Assembly (NCBI GenBank): GCA_005843805.1
Contig: SZXY01000123.1
Location: 1-41,979 of the forward strand
Length of the DNA: 41,979 nt
DNA from: Chlorobium sp.
Lineage (GTDB): Bacteria > Bacteroidota > Chlorobiia > Chlorobiales > Chlorobiaceae
Reading direction: 5' to 3'
Both the position numbers and the translations under genes were made by a program. Below, one piece after another: positions 8,209 to 17,865 of this stretch. The notes beneath the pieces are model-generated. The model was given only the letters and a program-made list of their open reading frames with translations. It searched no databases and had not been told where the DNA came from. Position 1 is the stretch's first letter. Every line of letters begins with the position of its first letter.

Positions 8209-9018
8209 TCAGTCGAGCTGGAACCTTATCGGAACGGTAAACCATACCTTGATGGGAGTGCCATTCTGAATGCCGGGATAGTATTTGGAATCCATCACGG
8301 ACTTCAGGGCAACAGCGTCAAAAACATCACAGTCGGCAGGGACACGTTTCATGACTTTGGCCTTGATGGGATGACCATCTTCAGCAATCAGGACACTGAC
8401 AAATACCTTTCCTGTAATTCCGGCAATTCTGGCCATCTCAGGATAAACCGGTTTTTTCTGGTCAAGAAAACCGGGCATTTTTTCACAGGGCACAAACATC
8501 GGTACCTCATCCCCGGAAGAGGCGGTTCCGGCTCCCGACCCCTGAGTCTGGATAGCCTGTTTCATCTCCCTCTGTGTAGCAAAAGTCTGTTCGGGAGGAA
8601 CTTCCGCCTGGCTGACCTGCTTGATCTTTCCGACATTGGGAGGCGGTGGAGCAACAGGAGATGATGGCGTGACAGGAGTTGGCTCGGGGATATCGAGCGG
8701 AGGTGGCGGTGGAAGCTGAGTCACACTGGTAACGACTTCATAACACTCGACCATTGGTTTATCGTCCTTGCCAAACAGTCCGCTCAACCGGGAAAGGGTT
8801 TGCCAGTTGGCTGTGACAAGCCAGAAAACCGACATAATCGCTATGGCGGTAATGACTCCGTGGCTTAAAAAAAGATGGGCCTGACGGCGGAGCACAAGAT
8901 TGCCATAGTGCAGCTTGCGCAAACGGTCAGTATCGAGAAACTCTTCACCGAAAGACCATGAAGAAAGGGCTTTGCGACTGAAAGTCTCCCTGTGGATTTT
9001 ATCAAGTTTTGAAAACAC
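8209..9018 (-). CDS. tonB: TonB-family energy transducer
   Basis: Links the ExbB-ExbD motor in the inner membrane to TonB-dependent receptors in the outer membrane. The 269 residues show an unusually long cytoplasmic N-terminus (about 48 residues), one membrane helix (about 50-70), and a proline-rich periplasmic linker (PPPPPLDIPEPTPV, about 102-128). A C-terminal TonB domain follows (YPEMARIAGITGKVFVSV to the end) with the typical final beta strand VWFTVPIRF. It is the last gene of the exbB-exbD-exbD-tonB operon, 27 nt after exbD2. No receptor gene is in the window, so the substrate (iron, cobalamin or other) cannot be stated. Confidence 0.92.
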   Translation of the reverse strand: MFSKLDKIHRETFSRKALSSWSFGEEFLDTDRLRKLHYGNLVLRRQAHLFLSHGVITAIAIMSVFWLVTANWQTLSRLSGLFGKDDKPMVECYEVVTSVTQLPPPPPLDIPEPTPVTPSSPVAPPPPNVGKIKQVSQAEVPPEQTFATQREMKQAIQTQGSGAGTASSGDEVPMFVPCEKMPGFLDQKKPVYPEMARIAGITGKVFVSVLIAEDGHPIKAKVMKRVPADCDVFDAVALKSVMDSKYYPGIQNGTPIKVWFTVPIRFQLD

Positions 9019-9045
9019 CTGAAAGCACTCCTTTATAATACTCTC

Positions 9046-9570
9046 TTAAACAGCTCTTTTAATTTCCTGCGCATCCTGCTCGGTAAAGTCATCAAGGCTG
9101 AACCGGTCGATTTTCATCAGGTTCAGTTCGTCAATAATATCGACGAGATGCTTGTAATGGGCTTTTTCACTGATTTTAACGACAATCACCAGTTTTTCAT
9201 TTTTAGTCGTCTGCTGGCGCAATATCTGGCGCAACTCTCCGCTTAGTGCCAGTTTGCGGCCATCTCCTGGATCATAGAGGGAAAACCTTCTCGGCGCCTC
9301 ATCTCCAAGAGAACAATAGGCTGTTGCGTCATCAGCAATCCTGAGCGTCATGACATTTGTCGCGGCAACCTTCACCTCCTTTGCTTCTGGAGGAATATTG
9401 ATCTCCATGGTATTGGATTTTGAAAAGGTTGTCGTCAGCATAAAAAAGGTCAGAAGAAGAAATGCGACATCAACCATCGGGGTCATATCGAGATGGAAAC
9501 CGATCCGTTTTGTGCGCCGCTTCCCTTTTTTCTGGCTGCGTCGTCCGTTTTGGGAATCAACCATACCCAT
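9046..9570 (-). CDS. exbD: ExbD/TolR-family biopolymer transport protein (second copy)
   Basis: A 174-residue motor subunit with one N-terminal membrane helix. The proton-carrying aspartate is Asp34 in [16 protein letters not shown]. The roughly 25-residue cytoplasmic tail before the helix is strongly basic ([13 protein letters not shown]), longer than in the upstream ExbD. The periplasmic part follows the ExbD/TolR pattern and ends in the usual (V/I)KIDRFSLDD-like segment. The start overlaps the upstream exbD stop by one base (TGATG), so the two are translated together. Two ExbD paralogues beside one ExbB may form a mixed stator or serve different partners (inference). Confidence 0.9.
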
Positions 9571-10103
9571 CAGCGAACCTCCTTTTCAAGAACGGTCACC
9601 AGATTGAAGGTGAGCATATTTGCCTTTTTGTATACCTTGATGACATGGTTGACCGCTTCATATCCGGCATCGGCATCGGCCCTGATAACAGGGCGGAGCT
9701 TCTGGTCGGCAAAACGTGCCATGACAACAAATTTGTCAAGCTCATCACGCCCAACCAGAAAGTTTTCTGCCAGCCTGAAGTGTTTCAGGGAGTCCTTTTG
9801 AGCAACTGCGGAAAAACCGGCCGATTGCAGTTTTGGCTTCACAACGGAGTTGAAAAGTTTCTCCCTCGTCTGCTGTGAAGAGACTCCCATAAAAAAGGTA
9901 TTGTCGCCGCTAACCGTTACGGTCAGAACATCTGATTCGGGAAGTTTCCGCTCCGAATGAGATGTGGGCAGATCTATCTTGACCACTTCAGGCGGACGAA
10001 ACTTGGTGGTCAGCATGAAAAACGTCAGCAGCAGAAACGCAACGTCCACCATTGGCGTCATATCAATGCGGAACCCAATCCGTTTTGACTTGATCCTCGA
10101 CAT
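9570..10103 (-). CDS. exbD: ExbD/TolR-family biopolymer transport protein (first copy)
   Basis: A 177-residue inner-membrane motor subunit. A short basic N-terminus ([14 protein letters not shown]) leads into a single helix. The essential aspartate is Asp20 in [15 protein letters not shown]. The periplasmic domain of about 135 residues diverges from that of the second ExbD while the helix is almost identical, which suggests an old duplication with changed partner contacts. It overlaps exbB upstream and exbD2 downstream by a single base at TGATG junctions, which points to coupled translation and fixed stoichiometry. Confidence 0.9.
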
Positions 10104-10852
10104 CAGTTGTCCGATTTACCGGTTCCAAGAGTCTGTATGATATAGAATGCTGCCTCATCGATCATGTAACTGAAATGATCGATCCTGCTGGTAAAAATGT
10201 TGTAGGTGACAATACCGAAAATACCACCGACAATACCAAGCGCAGTATTGAAGAGCGCTTCGGAGATGCCAAGCGAAAGCTGTACTGCATCGGGAGCACC
10301 ACTGGTTGCCATGGCGGCAAAAGCGCGGATCATGCCAAGTGTCGTTCCCAGAAGCCCGATCATGGTGGAAATCGAAGCAATGGTGGAAAGCGCCACCAGG
10401 TTTTTTTCAAGAAGCGGCATCTCCATCACCGTTGCCTCCTCGACAGCCTTTTCCATCTCACTGATCTTTTTCTCGCGATCAGTAACATTATAGGATACAA
10501 GTTTTTTGTACCGTTCAAGCACTGTACGCAACACTGCGGCAAGTGAACTCTGATGGTCATCACATTTGGCAATGGCCTGATCGATATAGCCGTTGTCAAT
10601 ATCCAGCTTGAGACTCCTGACAAATTCCGGAATGTTCCCTTTGCCTGAGGCCTTGTTCAGTGCGATGATACGCTCAACCGTGTAGGCAATCACCATAAGA
10701 ATAAGTGCCATAAGCACCGAAACAACCGGCCCACCTTTCCAGACGGCATGGAACATTGAACCCGGAGGAGTCGTACCCATCCAGACATAGAAGCCGAAAG
10801 AAACCGCGTAGGTTACGACAATGAGCAGACCCGTAAAAAAACCCTGTTTCAT
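10103..10852 (-). CDS. exbB: ExbB/TolQ/MotA-family proton channel
   Basis: A 249-residue inner-membrane protein that forms the ring around the ExbD helices and uses the proton gradient to drive TonB. Hydrophobic segments lie near residues 5-25, 38-58, 150-175 and 195-220. The MotA/TolQ/ExbB core motif is seen in STMIGLLGTTLGMIRAFAAM and in ISEALFNTALGIVGGIFGI. The first gene of the exbB-exbD-exbD-tonB operon. Its promoter should lie in the 310-bp region shared with the divergent dnaG. I saw no convincing Fur-type site there. Confidence 0.92.
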   Translation of the reverse strand: MKQGFFTGLLIVVTYAVSFGFYVWMGTTPPGSMFHAVWKGGPVVSVLMALILMVIAYTVERIIALNKASGKGNIPEFVRSLKLDIDNGYIDQAIAKCDDHQSSLAAVLRTVLERYKKLVSYNVTDREKKISEMEKAVEEATVMEMPLLEKNLVALSTIASISTMIGLLGTTLGMIRAFAAMATSGAPDAVQLSLGISEALFNTALGIVGGIFGIVTYNIFTSRIDHFSYMIDEAAFYIIQTLGTGKSDN

Positions 10853-11162: not shown

Positions 11163-13058
11163 ATGATTCCTCATACGGCCATTGATGATGTCCGGCAGGC
11201 GGCAGACATTGTTGATATTATCTCCGATTACCTGACGCTTCAGCCTTCAGGACGCAATTATAAGGCACTTTCTCCTTTTACCAAAGAGAAAACTCCGTCG
11301 TTTGTCGTCTCACCCGACAAACAGATCTACAAATGCTTTTCAACAGGCAAGGGTGGAAACGTATTCTCTTTTGTCATGGAAATGGAAAAGGTCTCCTTTC
11401 CCGAAGCAGTTGAACTGGTTGCCAAACGTGCAGGTATCGATATCAGCCGGTTTACCGAAAAAAAAGAGCACAAACCGGATCACGAAGAGAGCCGTACTGA
11501 AACTCTCCGCTGGGCGGCCAAGTTCTTTCACGCAACGCTTGAAAGCCAGGCCGGAAAAACAGGATATAGCTACCTGACTGAAGAGAGGGGCCTGTCGGCA
11601 AAAACCATTGCGAGTTTTGCCCTCGGTTACGCGCCCGAAGCATGGGAAAATCTGCACAATGAGGCAAAACGTGCTGGAATTGCGAAGGAGCATCTGCTTG
11701 AACTCGGACTGATAACGCATCGCAAAGAGAAAAACTCCTTTTATGACACCTTCAGGGGACGGGTGATTTTTCCGGTTTTTTCCATTGGAGGCCAAGTTGT
11801 CGGTTTTGGAGGACGAACCCTGCAGAGTGACCCTCAAACACCAAAATATCTTAACTCCCCGGAAAGCAGCCTCTTTGAAAAGTCCAAACTGCTCTATGGA
11901 CTGCACGCTGCAAAAGATGAAATCCGCCGCAAGGAGAGCGCTATCCTCGTTGAAGGCTACATGGATGTGCTGGCCCTTCACCAGGTTGGCATTACCAATA
12001 CGGTAGCGTCATGCGGCACCTCACTGACACGATACCAGGCAAAAATCCTGAAGCGCTACACCAACCGGGTACTCTTCATGTATGATGGAGACAGTGCCGG
12101 TCAAAAGTCAATGATGAGAGGTATCGACACGCTTCTGGCAGAAGGGCTCACCCCGTTCGTCCTCATGCTTCCTGTTGGTGACGATCCCGACAGCTTTGTT
12201 CGGCGTGAAGGACGGGAGAACTTTCTGCAGTTTGCCGCTGAAAATAAACTGCCGTTTCAGGAGTTTCAAATCCGGTTTTTCATGGAAGAGGGAAATTTCG
12301 ATCAGCCGGAGGTCAAATCAGAAGCGATCAAGGCAATGGCACACTCCATTGCACTGATCCCTGACCGAATCCGCCAGGAGCTTTACCTGCAGGAACTGTC
12401 GGAAAAACTGGCCATCAGCCTGCAGGCGCTCCACGAACTGCTTGGCAAGGAAAAGGTGACAGAGGAAAAGAAGAGAGTCTCAGCCGAAGATCGACTGGTC
12501 GTTCCCTCTCCGCGCCGGGAACAGACAAACTTCTCGGTTCTGGAAAAAACTTTTTTGAAAGCGCTGCTTGAAAGCACCGCGTATGGCAATGCCGTTCTGG
12601 AGTTTGCCGCTTCACATGAAGAGATGCTGGAGTTGCCACACAGGGAGGCGCAGGAGATTTTTACCCACATGATCCGCCGCTACCATGAGATTGCCGCCAA
12701 CCCGGAAGAGAGGATCGACATCACAACCGAAATAAGCATGTTCAGTCATCCGGAATCGAGAGACCTTGCCTCCGGTTTGCTTATCGAGCAACCGGTAAGC
12801 AATAAATGGCTTGAACAATCCGACCTGCACGCTCAAAATGCAAAACGGTGTCTGACAATGTTCCTCGATGCCTTCAAAAACCTTATTCTGGAGCCCCTGA
12901 TCCGCCAGAATGAGGTGATAACGGAAAAGATCCGCCATGAGAGCGATACAAACCGCGAGATCGAGCTGTCGAGGGAAAAGATTCTGCTTGACAAAAAAAT
13001 CAGGAAAACCTCCCGTGACCTTGGTACGATGATAACATCCATTCTCAACAGCCAGTAA
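11163..13058 (+). CDS. dnaG: DNA primase, with degenerate zinc-binding site
   Basis: Makes RNA primers at the replication fork with DnaB helicase. The 631 residues hold an N-terminal CHC2-like domain (1-100), a catalytic core with the TOPRIM region (VEGYMDVLALHQ and FMYDGDSAG, about 260-320), and a C-terminal helicase-binding region. Odd feature: the usual Cys-His-Cys-Cys zinc ligands appear as Ser37, Thr40, Cys58 and Thr61, so three of four are lost while the surrounding framework (EKTPSF, GKGGN) is kept. This is probably lineage-wide and not damage, since the rest of the enzyme is intact. Convergent with glyA. Confidence 0.96.
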   Translation: MIPHTAIDDVRQAADIVDIISDYLTLQPSGRNYKALSPFTKEKTPSFVVSPDKQIYKCFSTGKGGNVFSFVMEMEKVSFPEAVELVAKRAGIDISRFTEKKEHKPDHEESRTETLRWAAKFFHATLESQAGKTGYSYLTEERGLSAKTIASFALGYAPEAWENLHNEAKRAGIAKEHLLELGLITHRKEKNSFYDTFRGRVIFPVFSIGGQVVGFGGRTLQSDPQTPKYLNSPESSLFEKSKLLYGLHAAKDEIRRKESAILVEGYMDVLALHQVGITNTVASCGTSLTRYQAKILKRYTNRVLFMYDGDSAGQKSMMRGIDTLLAEGLTPFVLMLPVGDDPDSFVRREGRENFLQFAAENKLPFQEFQIRFFMEEGNFDQPEVKSEAIKAMAHSIALIPDRIRQELYLQELSEKLAISLQALHELLGKEKVTEEKKRVSAEDRLVVPSPRREQTNFSVLEKTFLKALLESTAYGNAVLEFAASHEEMLELPHREAQEIFTHMIRRYHEIAANPEERIDITTEISMFSHPESRDLASGLLIEQPVSNKWLEQSDLHAQNAKRCLTMFLDAFKNLILEPLIRQNEVITEKIRHESDTNREIELSREKILLDKKIRKTSRDLGTMITSILNSQ

Positions 13059-16008: not shown

Positions 16009-17865
16009 ATGACCATACAAGCTTCCGACCTGCCGCAGGAGGTTATTGACCTTGCCCGGAAATTCCCGAAAGAGATGCTGCTGAAAGCCAAGCAAAACGG
16101 CTTTTCCGATTTTCAGCTTGCCAATATTTTCAACACTGCCGAGCCATCCATAAGGGCTCTGAGAAAACATTACGGTGTTGAATCCGTTTTTAAAACCGTC
16201 GATACCTGCGCAGCGGAGTTCGACGCAAAAACTCCCTACCACTATTCGACCTACGAAGAGGAAAACGAATCCATTGTTTCCGACCGCAAAAAGGTAATTA
16301 TCCTCGGTGGAGGGCCTAACCGCATCGGCCAGGGCATCGAGTTTGACTATTGTTGCGTCCAGGCAGTCTTCGCCCTCAGGGAGGCCGGCTATGAGACCAT
16401 CATGGTAAACTGTAACCCTGAAACTGTTTCCACGGACTACGATATAGCCGACAAACTCTACTTCGAACCGCTCACCTTTGAAGACACCATCCGCATCATA
16501 GAGCACGAAAAGCCGCTCGGTGTCATTGTCAGCTTTGGAGGCCAGACACCGCTGAAGCTCTCAACCAAACTGCATGAAGCTGGAGTAACCATTCTCGGTA
16601 CCTCCTCCAAAGGCATTGACATGGCTGAAGACCGCAAGAAATTCGGGGCTCTGCTTGAACAGCTCGATATCCCGCATCCCGAATACGGCACAGCCATAAA
16701 CCTCGATGAAGCCAAGGAGATAACCCGCAGAATCGGCTACCCTGCCCTTGTCCGGCCAAGCTATGTTCTCGGCGGACGGGCAATGAAAATCGTCTACAAC
16801 GACGATTCGCTCAAGGAGTATATCGACCAGGCGCTCTTTATTACGGAAAAATATCCCCTTCTGATCGACCGTTTTCTGGAAACCGCCGTTGAATTCGATA
16901 TCGACGCCATTGCCGACCGCACTGACTGCGTCATCAGCGGCATCATGCAGCATGTCGAGGCTGCAGGCATTCACAGCGGAGACTCCACCTCCATTCTGCC
17001 CTATCATAACATCAGCCAGAATGTCATTGCCACGATGAAGGAGTATACCCGCAAGCTGGCGGCAAACCTCAAGGTGGTCGGACTGATGAACATTCAGTAT
17101 GCCGTGCAGAACGAGAGTGTCTATGTAATCGAGGTAAACCCGAGAGCCAGCCGTACTGTTCCATTTGTCGGCAAGGCAACCGCCATCCCTGTGGTAAAAA
17201 TTGCAACCAGAGTCATGCTTGGCGAAAAGCTCAGCGACCTGCGCAAGGAGTACGACCTGAAAGATTGCGACGAACTCGGCATGAAGCATCTGGCCATCAA
17301 GGAACCAGTCTTCCCATTCTCAAAATTTGTCAAATCAGGCGTCTACCTCGGCCCTGAAATGCGCTCGACCGGTGAAGCCATGAGCCTTGCTGACGAGTTC
17401 CCCGAAGCCTTTGCCAAAGCATACCAGGCGGCAAACATGCATCTGCCCCTCTCCGGTGCAGTCTTTATCAGTGTCAACGACCAGGACAAAAACCAGAGAA
17501 TTCTTGACATTGCACGAGCGCTCTACCGCATGGACTTCGACCTGATTGCCACAGCAGGCACACACAGCTTCCTGACAGAGCACGGCATTGAGTGCAAAAA
17601 GGTCTTCAAGGTCGGTGAAGAGGGTCGTCCGAACATCTTCGACATCATCAAGCACGGCAAGATCAACTTTGTCATCAATACCCCAAGAGGCGAAAAAGCA
17701 CTGCACGACGAAGAGGCAATCGGCGCTGCATCAGTACTGAGCAACGTCCCCTTTGTCACCACAATAGAGGCCGCCGAAGCATCGGTTCAGGCAATCGACT
17801 GTATCCGCCACCAGGAGTTCGGAGTCAAAAGCCTCCAGGAGTACTCCTCCTACCGCGACAAATAA
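16009..17865 (+). CDS. carB: Carbamoyl-phosphate synthase large subunit, C-terminal half (split CarB)
   Basis: 618 residues, covering only the second half of the roughly 1070-residue CarB. It starts in the oligomerisation domain (LANIFNTAEPSIRALRKHYGV). The second ATP-grasp synthetase domain, which phosphorylates carbamate, follows (VIILGGGPNRIGQGIEFDY, NCNPETVSTDYD, EVNPRASRTVPFVGK). It ends with the MGS-like allosteric domain (ATAGTHSFL, NTPRGEKA). The N-terminal glutaminase-linked half is not in the window. The preceding 236 bp carry no coding remnant of it, so this is a true split gene, as known in some archaea and deep-branching bacteria, not a truncation. It feeds arginine and pyrimidine synthesis. 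A promoter and leader hairpin precede it. Confidence 0.93.
   Translation: MTIQASDLPQEVIDLARKFPKEMLLKAKQNGFSDFQLANIFNTAEPSIRALRKHYGVESVFKTVDTCAAEFDAKTPYHYSTYEEENESIVSDRKKVIILGGGPNRIGQGIEFDYCCVQAVFALREAGYETIMVNCNPETVSTDYDIADKLYFEPLTFEDTIRIIEHEKPLGVIVSFGGQTPLKLSTKLHEAGVTILGTSSKGIDMAEDRKKFGALLEQLDIPHPEYGTAINLDEAKEITRRIGYPALVRPSYVLGGRAMKIVYNDDSLKEYIDQALFITEKYPLLIDRFLETAVEFDIDAIADRTDCVISGIMQHVEAAGIHSGDSTSILPYHNISQNVIATMKEYTRKLAANLKVVGLMNIQYAVQNESVYVIEVNPRASRTVPFVGKATAIPVVKIATRVMLGEKLSDLRKEYDLKDCDELGMKHLAIKEPVFPFSKFVKSGVYLGPEMRSTGEAMSLADEFPEAFAKAYQAANMHLPLSGAVFISVNDQDKNQRILDIARALYRMDFDLIATAGTHSFLTEHGIECKKVFKVGEEGRPNIFDIIKHGKINFVINTPRGEKALHDEEAIGAASVLSNVPFVTTIEAAEASVQAIDCIRHQEFGVKSLQEYSSYRDK

Follow-up and report, generated by a model that had tools for sequence, protein, structure and literature searches.

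A zinc-ribbon domain without its zinc ligands in the DnaG primase of Chlorobium, and its recurrence in at least two bacterial phyla

The dnaG locus and the ligand positions of its N-terminal domain

The stretch of DNA analysed here as a whole (the window; 41,979 nucleotides, contig SZXY01000123.1 of the Chlorobium sp. assembly GCA_005843805.1) encodes on its forward strand a complete, single-copy dnaG gene for DNA primase (11163..13058; 631 residues), identified from the translated open reading frame with Pfam and TIGR profiles. Its product scores 455.7 bits against the full-length TIGR01391 dnaG profile, above the curated cut-off of 283.6. The Pfam matches (Zn_ribbon_DnaG, DNAG_N, Toprim models and DnaB_bind) divide it, all on the forward strand, into an N-terminal zinc-ribbon domain (PF01807; residues 1-96, 11163..11450), the N-terminal part of the RNA polymerase domain (residues 121-251, 11523..11915), a Toprim part (residues 260-345, 11940..12197) and a DnaB-binding region (residues 367-420, 12261..12422). 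The catalytic EGYMD and DGD motifs of the Toprim part are intact in the translation. With the profile match, a polymerase domain bearing the Toprim motifs and a DnaB-binding region all present, the protein is a bacterial DnaG primase. Its first domain is matched by PF01807 over residues 3-96 with 113.1 bits (gathering cut-off 24.9).

The source genome (2.38 Mb, 99.95% complete) contains only this one PF01807 match, which makes the protein the sole DnaG-family primase matched there and rules out that it is a stray paralogue; the same profile search found no second, zinc-type DnaG in this genome. The closest named relatives among the matches listed come from Chlorobium and Chlorobiaceae, that of C. 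ferrooxidans being 96% identical over residues 1-82. Divergent from dnaG, on the reverse strand, lies a row of TonB-like, two ExbD/TolR and one ExbB/TolQ genes (8209-10852). Further downstream, an open reading frame of 618 residues on the forward strand (16009-17865), with a RibBA gene just upstream on the opposite strand, matches only the later part of the carbamoyl phosphate synthase large chain (pre-ATP-grasp, ATP-grasp and MGS domains), and looks like a split carB.

Alignment with the solved zinc domain of Bacillus stearothermophilus (PDB: 1d0q), whose ligands are Cys, His, Cys and Cys, places LSPFT and YKCFSTG of the window DnaG opposite LCPFH and FHCFGCG. The first Cys ligand is thereby replaced by Ser37 (codon tct, 11271..11273), the His by Thr40 (acc, 11280..11282) and the last Cys by Thr61 (aca, 11343..11345), all on the forward strand like the single ligand position that is kept, Cys58 (tgc, 11334..11336); the equivalent E. 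coli positions are 40, 43, 61 and 64. A fifth replacement lies in the same knuckle, where the Gly of 1d0q and of most zinc-type primases is Ser60 (tca, 11340..11342, forward strand). The codons and the alignment to 1d0q thus bear out the original prediction, which had assigned the four ligand positions in the same way. Since it carries S37, T40, C58 and T61 in place of the three Cys and one His ligands of the CHC2 zinc ribbon (PF01807), the domain is, as read from its sequence, a homologue of that ribbon and not a zinc-site-bearing member of it. Cys or His ligands at shifted positions, which would have spoken for a different alignment, were sought in 50 different Chlorobia sequences and are absent: Cys58 is the sole Cys or His found in more than 60% of the rows over residues 1-110. 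A shifted-ligand alignment can hence be ruled out, as apart from Cys58 this region of the Chlorobia proteins has no conserved Cys or His.

Distribution and recurrence of the zinc-less form

We searched 98 Chlorobia genomes, and in all 93 with a PF01807 match (five had none) the domain is of the S-x-C-S-[ST] type, which excludes a sequencing error and makes lineage-wide in Chlorobia what the original prediction had raised as an "if". The residues at positions 37, 40, 58, 60 and 61 read STCST in 57 genomes, STCSS in 30, SNCST in four, and SKCST and SSCSS in one each. Cys58 is thus retained in 93 of 93 though its partner ligands are gone, and other zinc-less lineages have only Cys or Asp there. 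Two Chlorobia genomes listed as 99% complete (G014 and G049) show no PF01807 match, probably owing to assembly gaps. Part of the Chlorobia family f4 (L094-L097 and L161) has one or two extra ribbon residues after SPF, e.g. SPFNPSEKTPSF, and in two assemblies (L087 in G232 and L099 in G096) the dnaG frame is broken near the N-terminus, either by error or in reality; L099 was counted as zinc-less from its sequence reading despite the broken frame.

Beyond Chlorobia, the original suggestion that Bacteroidota primases also lack these residues proved right for 21 and wrong for 86 of 107 genomes, the latter having kept all four ligands; these 107 were our pick from 148 drawn, spread over families and weighted to low scores. 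The zinc-less genes belong to families f11, f15, f23 and f25 and to parts of f6, f26 and f31, each of the last three being a single GTDB family with both primase types. Family f5, whose zinc-type members stand closest in the trees of the polymerase domain, has CHCC in four of four genomes. A scan of named contigs recovered at least 80 loci, 78 zinc-less and two zinc-type among the matches listed, proportions that carry no meaning as the scan was seeded with zinc-less sequences.

We then compared DnaG N-termini from all sources, keeping the loci that gave a full-length match at E 1e-40. Removal of 17 identical sequences from a total of 278 left 261 different N-termini, of which 113 have all four ligands, 148 are zinc-less and none is mixed. 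Position 37 is Ser in every one of the 148 zinc-less rows, as is position 60, which in the 113 zinc-type rows is Gly in 106, Ser in six and Ala in one. Position 58 is Cys in 93 and Asp in 55 of the zinc-less rows, and position 61 is Ser in 81 and Thr in 67. Only the His position varies widely (Thr 95, Ser 19, Lys 13, Val 7, Asn 6, Ala 5, His 2, Ile 1). The absence of intermediates fits two stable states with poor ones between them, and sampling could miss short-lived ones.

Among the named-contig matches listed, the Actinomycetota are represented by two zinc-less Corynebacterium records (L186 and L217), on which our use of that name rests; three further rows cluster with one of them in the polymerase-domain tree with support 100/98. 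In the GTDB family of Corynebacterium we read 50 places (the 30 best and 20 lower-scoring, from 81 genomes), which gave 39 zinc-type and 10 zinc-less genes and one, L309, that was left out of the counts as it is cut by a contig end. The zinc-less rows of this family share the pattern LKGLSPF[KT]DE[KR]TPSFHVRP...HCFS[ST]G[EK]GGD. The Corynebacterium type, typically with Lys at the His position, reads LSPFK/HCFSTG where other Mycobacteriaceae have LCPFH/HCFGCG, in near-identical surroundings. As the remainder of its domain is 70-82% identical to zinc-type relatives versus 51-57% to zinc-less rows elsewhere, we conclude that the Corynebacterium lineage switched in place. Genome G578 has two DnaG starts (L265 and L300) on separate contigs, one of them zinc-less and the other zinc-type and unlike those of the same family; on its sequence this double DnaG is likely contamination or a foreign element. 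An exact motif pattern matched in 23 of 296 Actinomycetota genomes; by eye, one of these matches, that of the centre genome itself, is a zinc-less primase, two are zinc-type and the others look like chance, the reversed control pattern being about as frequent. A narrower pattern, blind to an AGY serine at position 61, matched in none of 398 Bacillota genomes.

To follow the history of the two states we built trees on the polymerase domain only, leaving out the N-terminal ribbon. A tree of 113 Bacteroidota rows, which omitted the frameshifted L087 and all but nine f1 rows, needs five changes of state, four of them forced. A chosen 74-row tree that includes Corynebacterium and named loci needs 12 (11-12 over bootstraps), nine of them forced by supported branches, with a long-branch warning for L163, L167 and L213 and uneven composition flagged too. 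A 44-row tree needs eight, six forced. On these 44 rows, which were picked after earlier trees had been seen, a one-clade constraint rejects a single origin of the zinc-less rows, whether all of them are taken (p 9.6e-46) or those of Bacteroidota by themselves (p 7.6e-5). The zinc-less state therefore arose repeatedly, in at least two phyla, and these change counts say nothing on the direction of the switch.

One Bacteroidota gene points to a second route. In L073 (genome G172, family f6) the polymerase domain is 78% identical to that of its zinc-type relative L115, whereas residues 1-90 are 53-60% identical to L115 versus 67-87% to a zinc-less Flavobacteriales row; other zinc-type f6 rows share 67-93% of these residues with L115. 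From about residue 106 the closeness flips, and L115 is nearer than the Flavobacteriales row. This pattern suggests that the 5' module of this dnaG was replaced, the alternative being faster change after a switch in place. As a general route, transfer of the domain can be rejected: in the nearest-neighbour comparison, which also took in f26 and f31, it is supported for L073 only and contradicted by the Corynebacterium type.

Viral contigs yielded at least 80 loci, 59 zinc-less and 21 zinc-type among the matches listed, of which a script parsed 44 (32 zinc-less and 12 zinc-type, without a mixed one) and 36 were read by eye (27 and nine); the scan was seeded with zinc-less queries and these proportions too are without meaning. 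Two listed loci deviate in having Ala at position 60, and in the zinc-type L459 the last Cys is shifted by one. The zinc-less form is thus present in phages as well. The contigs (L400-L479) encode both ribbon types and are a possible reservoir for exchange with hosts.

Constraint, predicted fold and proposed role of the domain

The ratio of divergence in the N-terminal domain to that in the polymerase domain is 0.69 in Chlorobia, 0.66 in f15 and 0.72 in the Corynebacterium type, as against 0.95, 0.95, 0.74, 0.90, 0.73 and 0.85 in six zinc-type groups; the groups were hand-picked, the five switch columns were excluded, and the zinc-type values of 0.73 and 0.74 nearly touch the zinc-less range. 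The zinc-less domain is thus under purifying selection and no less constrained than the zinc form. It has neither gaps nor truncations, and 34 zinc-less rows show no variation at the glycine, EKTPSF-type and aromatic positions of the framework. An AlphaFold2 model of window residues 1-106, made from 34 zinc-less sequences, has a mean pLDDT of 91.4 (96-97 over residues 31-70), versus 89.3 for a zinc-type control model from 15 sequences. The window model superimposes on 1d0q with TM-scores of 0.89/0.92 and 1.1 A over 100 columns (Z 17.0 in a fold search; 48-49% identity). The fold of the zinc ribbon is hence predicted to be kept, in agreement with the earlier proposal that the domain had kept its shape; as AlphaFold2 leaves metal out and tends to return the family fold, the model says little on whether the fold is stable without zinc.

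We consider it likely that the ribbon is a metal-free version of the zinc-binding domain of primase that still helps to dock the template on the catalytic core, its metal-free state being inferred from the ligands. The four zinc ligands and the neighbouring glycine were replaced together, and the knuckle would probably be held by packing and by side-chain hydrogen bonds in place of zinc, through interactions of Ser/Thr and of Cys or Asp. In work on T7 primase the zinc motif is reportedly needed for template recognition, which counts against a metal-free reading. In B. subtilis DnaG the zinc domain is needed for template binding and yet alone binds no DNA, while the polymerase domain alone forms no stable complex (PMC5429622). 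By analogy with this enzyme, and because the zinc-less domain keeps its predicted fold and is under purifying selection, its task is most likely still to dock onto the RNA polymerase domain and to assist in holding the template at the start site.

As a different cause, lineages short of zinc might have shed structural zinc sites in general, with primase as one of many, like the C- ribosomal proteins. The other zinc proteins of the source genome make this unlikely. RpoC keeps its CxC..CxxC (CYCG..CDRCG), RecR keeps four Cys, and the RibA encoded in the window keeps its Cys triad (C..C-D-C), which we take to be zinc ligands; with three such proteins retaining their ligands, zinc avoidance alone is a weak explanation. 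RecR has four Cys in all 23 genomes read (24 were searched and one was not extracted), 15 of which are zinc-less for DnaG. Loss of the RecR zinc finger in the source genome could be rejected with TIGR00615; the 21-position model PF02132 found no match there though RecR is present, probably because of two extra residues, and in Chlorobia RecR zinc fingers (L326, L318, L322, L324) the spacer from one Cys pair to the next is longer by about two residues. Moreover, both primase types coexist within f6, f26 and f31, and the source genome, with its one PF01807 match, has neither the zinc-binding paralogue that marks the class of zinc-regulated C- spare copies nor a zinc-type DnaG to switch to. In favour of zinc economy, Table 2 of PMC3087516 gives C- forms in Chlorobi for S14, L33, S18, L28 and S4, and in Bacteroidetes for nearly all of the proteins, and zinc-independent ribosomal paralogues are known (PMC5912738); the table of PMC3087516 has Chlorobi as C+ for L32, L36 and L31. 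With Chlorobi zinc-free in that table for five of these eight proteins, a wider historical zinc pressure is possible.

Alternatively, Cys58 or Asp58 of the domain might together with Ser/Thr hydroxyls still bind a metal, which could be magnesium or, weakly, zinc. The restriction of position 58 to Cys or Asp and of positions 37, 60 and 61 to Ser or Ser/Thr in all 148 rows agrees with this, and a weak or different metal site may use the Cys58 kept in all Chlorobia read. We nevertheless regard such binding as improbable, as the residues at the His position, from Thr to Ile and typically Lys in the Corynebacterium type, do not form a conserved ligand, and hydroxyls with one Cys make poor zinc ligands.

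Least probable of all is decay, with the domain a remnant and template choice taken over by the polymerase domain or the helicase. All ligands can indeed go together, and metazoan Twinkle, a fold match here, has a primase-like lobe with primase activity described as lost (PMC3610141), but the zinc-less domain is no less conserved than that of zinc-type relatives, its lower divergence ratios (0.66-0.72 versus 0.73-0.95) argue that it is not decaying, and it is ungapped and full-length with an invariant framework.

Relation to known systems and implications

The window ribbon resembles the solved domains of B. stearothermophilus (1D0Q; whole-domain match E 5e-29, predicted fold within 1.1 A) and Aquifex aeolicus (2AU3; whole-domain sequence match E 6.9e-24), like which it is placed before the polymerase domain; unlike them it lacks three of the four zinc ligands and has the Gly to Ser change in the knuckle. 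The primase-like N-terminal lobe of metazoan Twinkle (7T8C), to our knowledge also without zinc ligands, matches the fold of the window model over 62 residues with Z 8.1. In contrast to Twinkle, reported as inactive in priming (PMC3610141), the window DnaG has intact Toprim motifs, and no other DnaG-family primase is matched in its genome. TtDnaG2 is another DnaG with an unusual zinc domain, which is discussed together with low start-site specificity (PMC5634424); what is described there is a sequestration of the conserved sites from the polymerase domain, and not their loss. Like C- ribosomal proteins such as S4, DnaG is a core information-processing protein that occurs patchily and recurrently in zinc and zinc-free forms, and for the former horizontal transfer is reported (PMC3087516). 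DnaG differs from them in being a replication enzyme with five changes together and little other change, and here in being single-copy, not a zinc-regulated spare paralogue. While the DnaG family is well known, we found no description of a zinc-less DnaG in the open-access library searched, which leaves out most subscription journals. The recurrent, cross-phylum form is thus apparently undescribed there, and others may have noticed it, as it is visible in public sequences.

More generally, and on balance, we favour the view that there are two interchangeable forms of DnaG-type primase in bacteria and phages, one zinc-bound and one metal-free. Between them would lie a concerted switch of five residues, for which no intermediates were seen and which at least two phyla would have made repeatedly, in place in the case of the Corynebacterium lineage and perhaps also by exchange of the whole 5' module of dnaG, as in one Bacteroidota gene. 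The same ribbon could then be built in two interchangeable ways, and zinc, the basis of one of them, would be a dispensable staple with no part in template recognition. A metal long thought essential in the primase ribbon may accordingly not be needed, the removal of its ligands being a natural experiment done many times, and close pairs, such as the Corynebacterium type and other Mycobacteriaceae, allow a direct test of what the metal does. The finding bears on the design of primase drugs aimed at the zinc domain, and offers an example of an essential enzyme that lost a structural metal in a concerted way.
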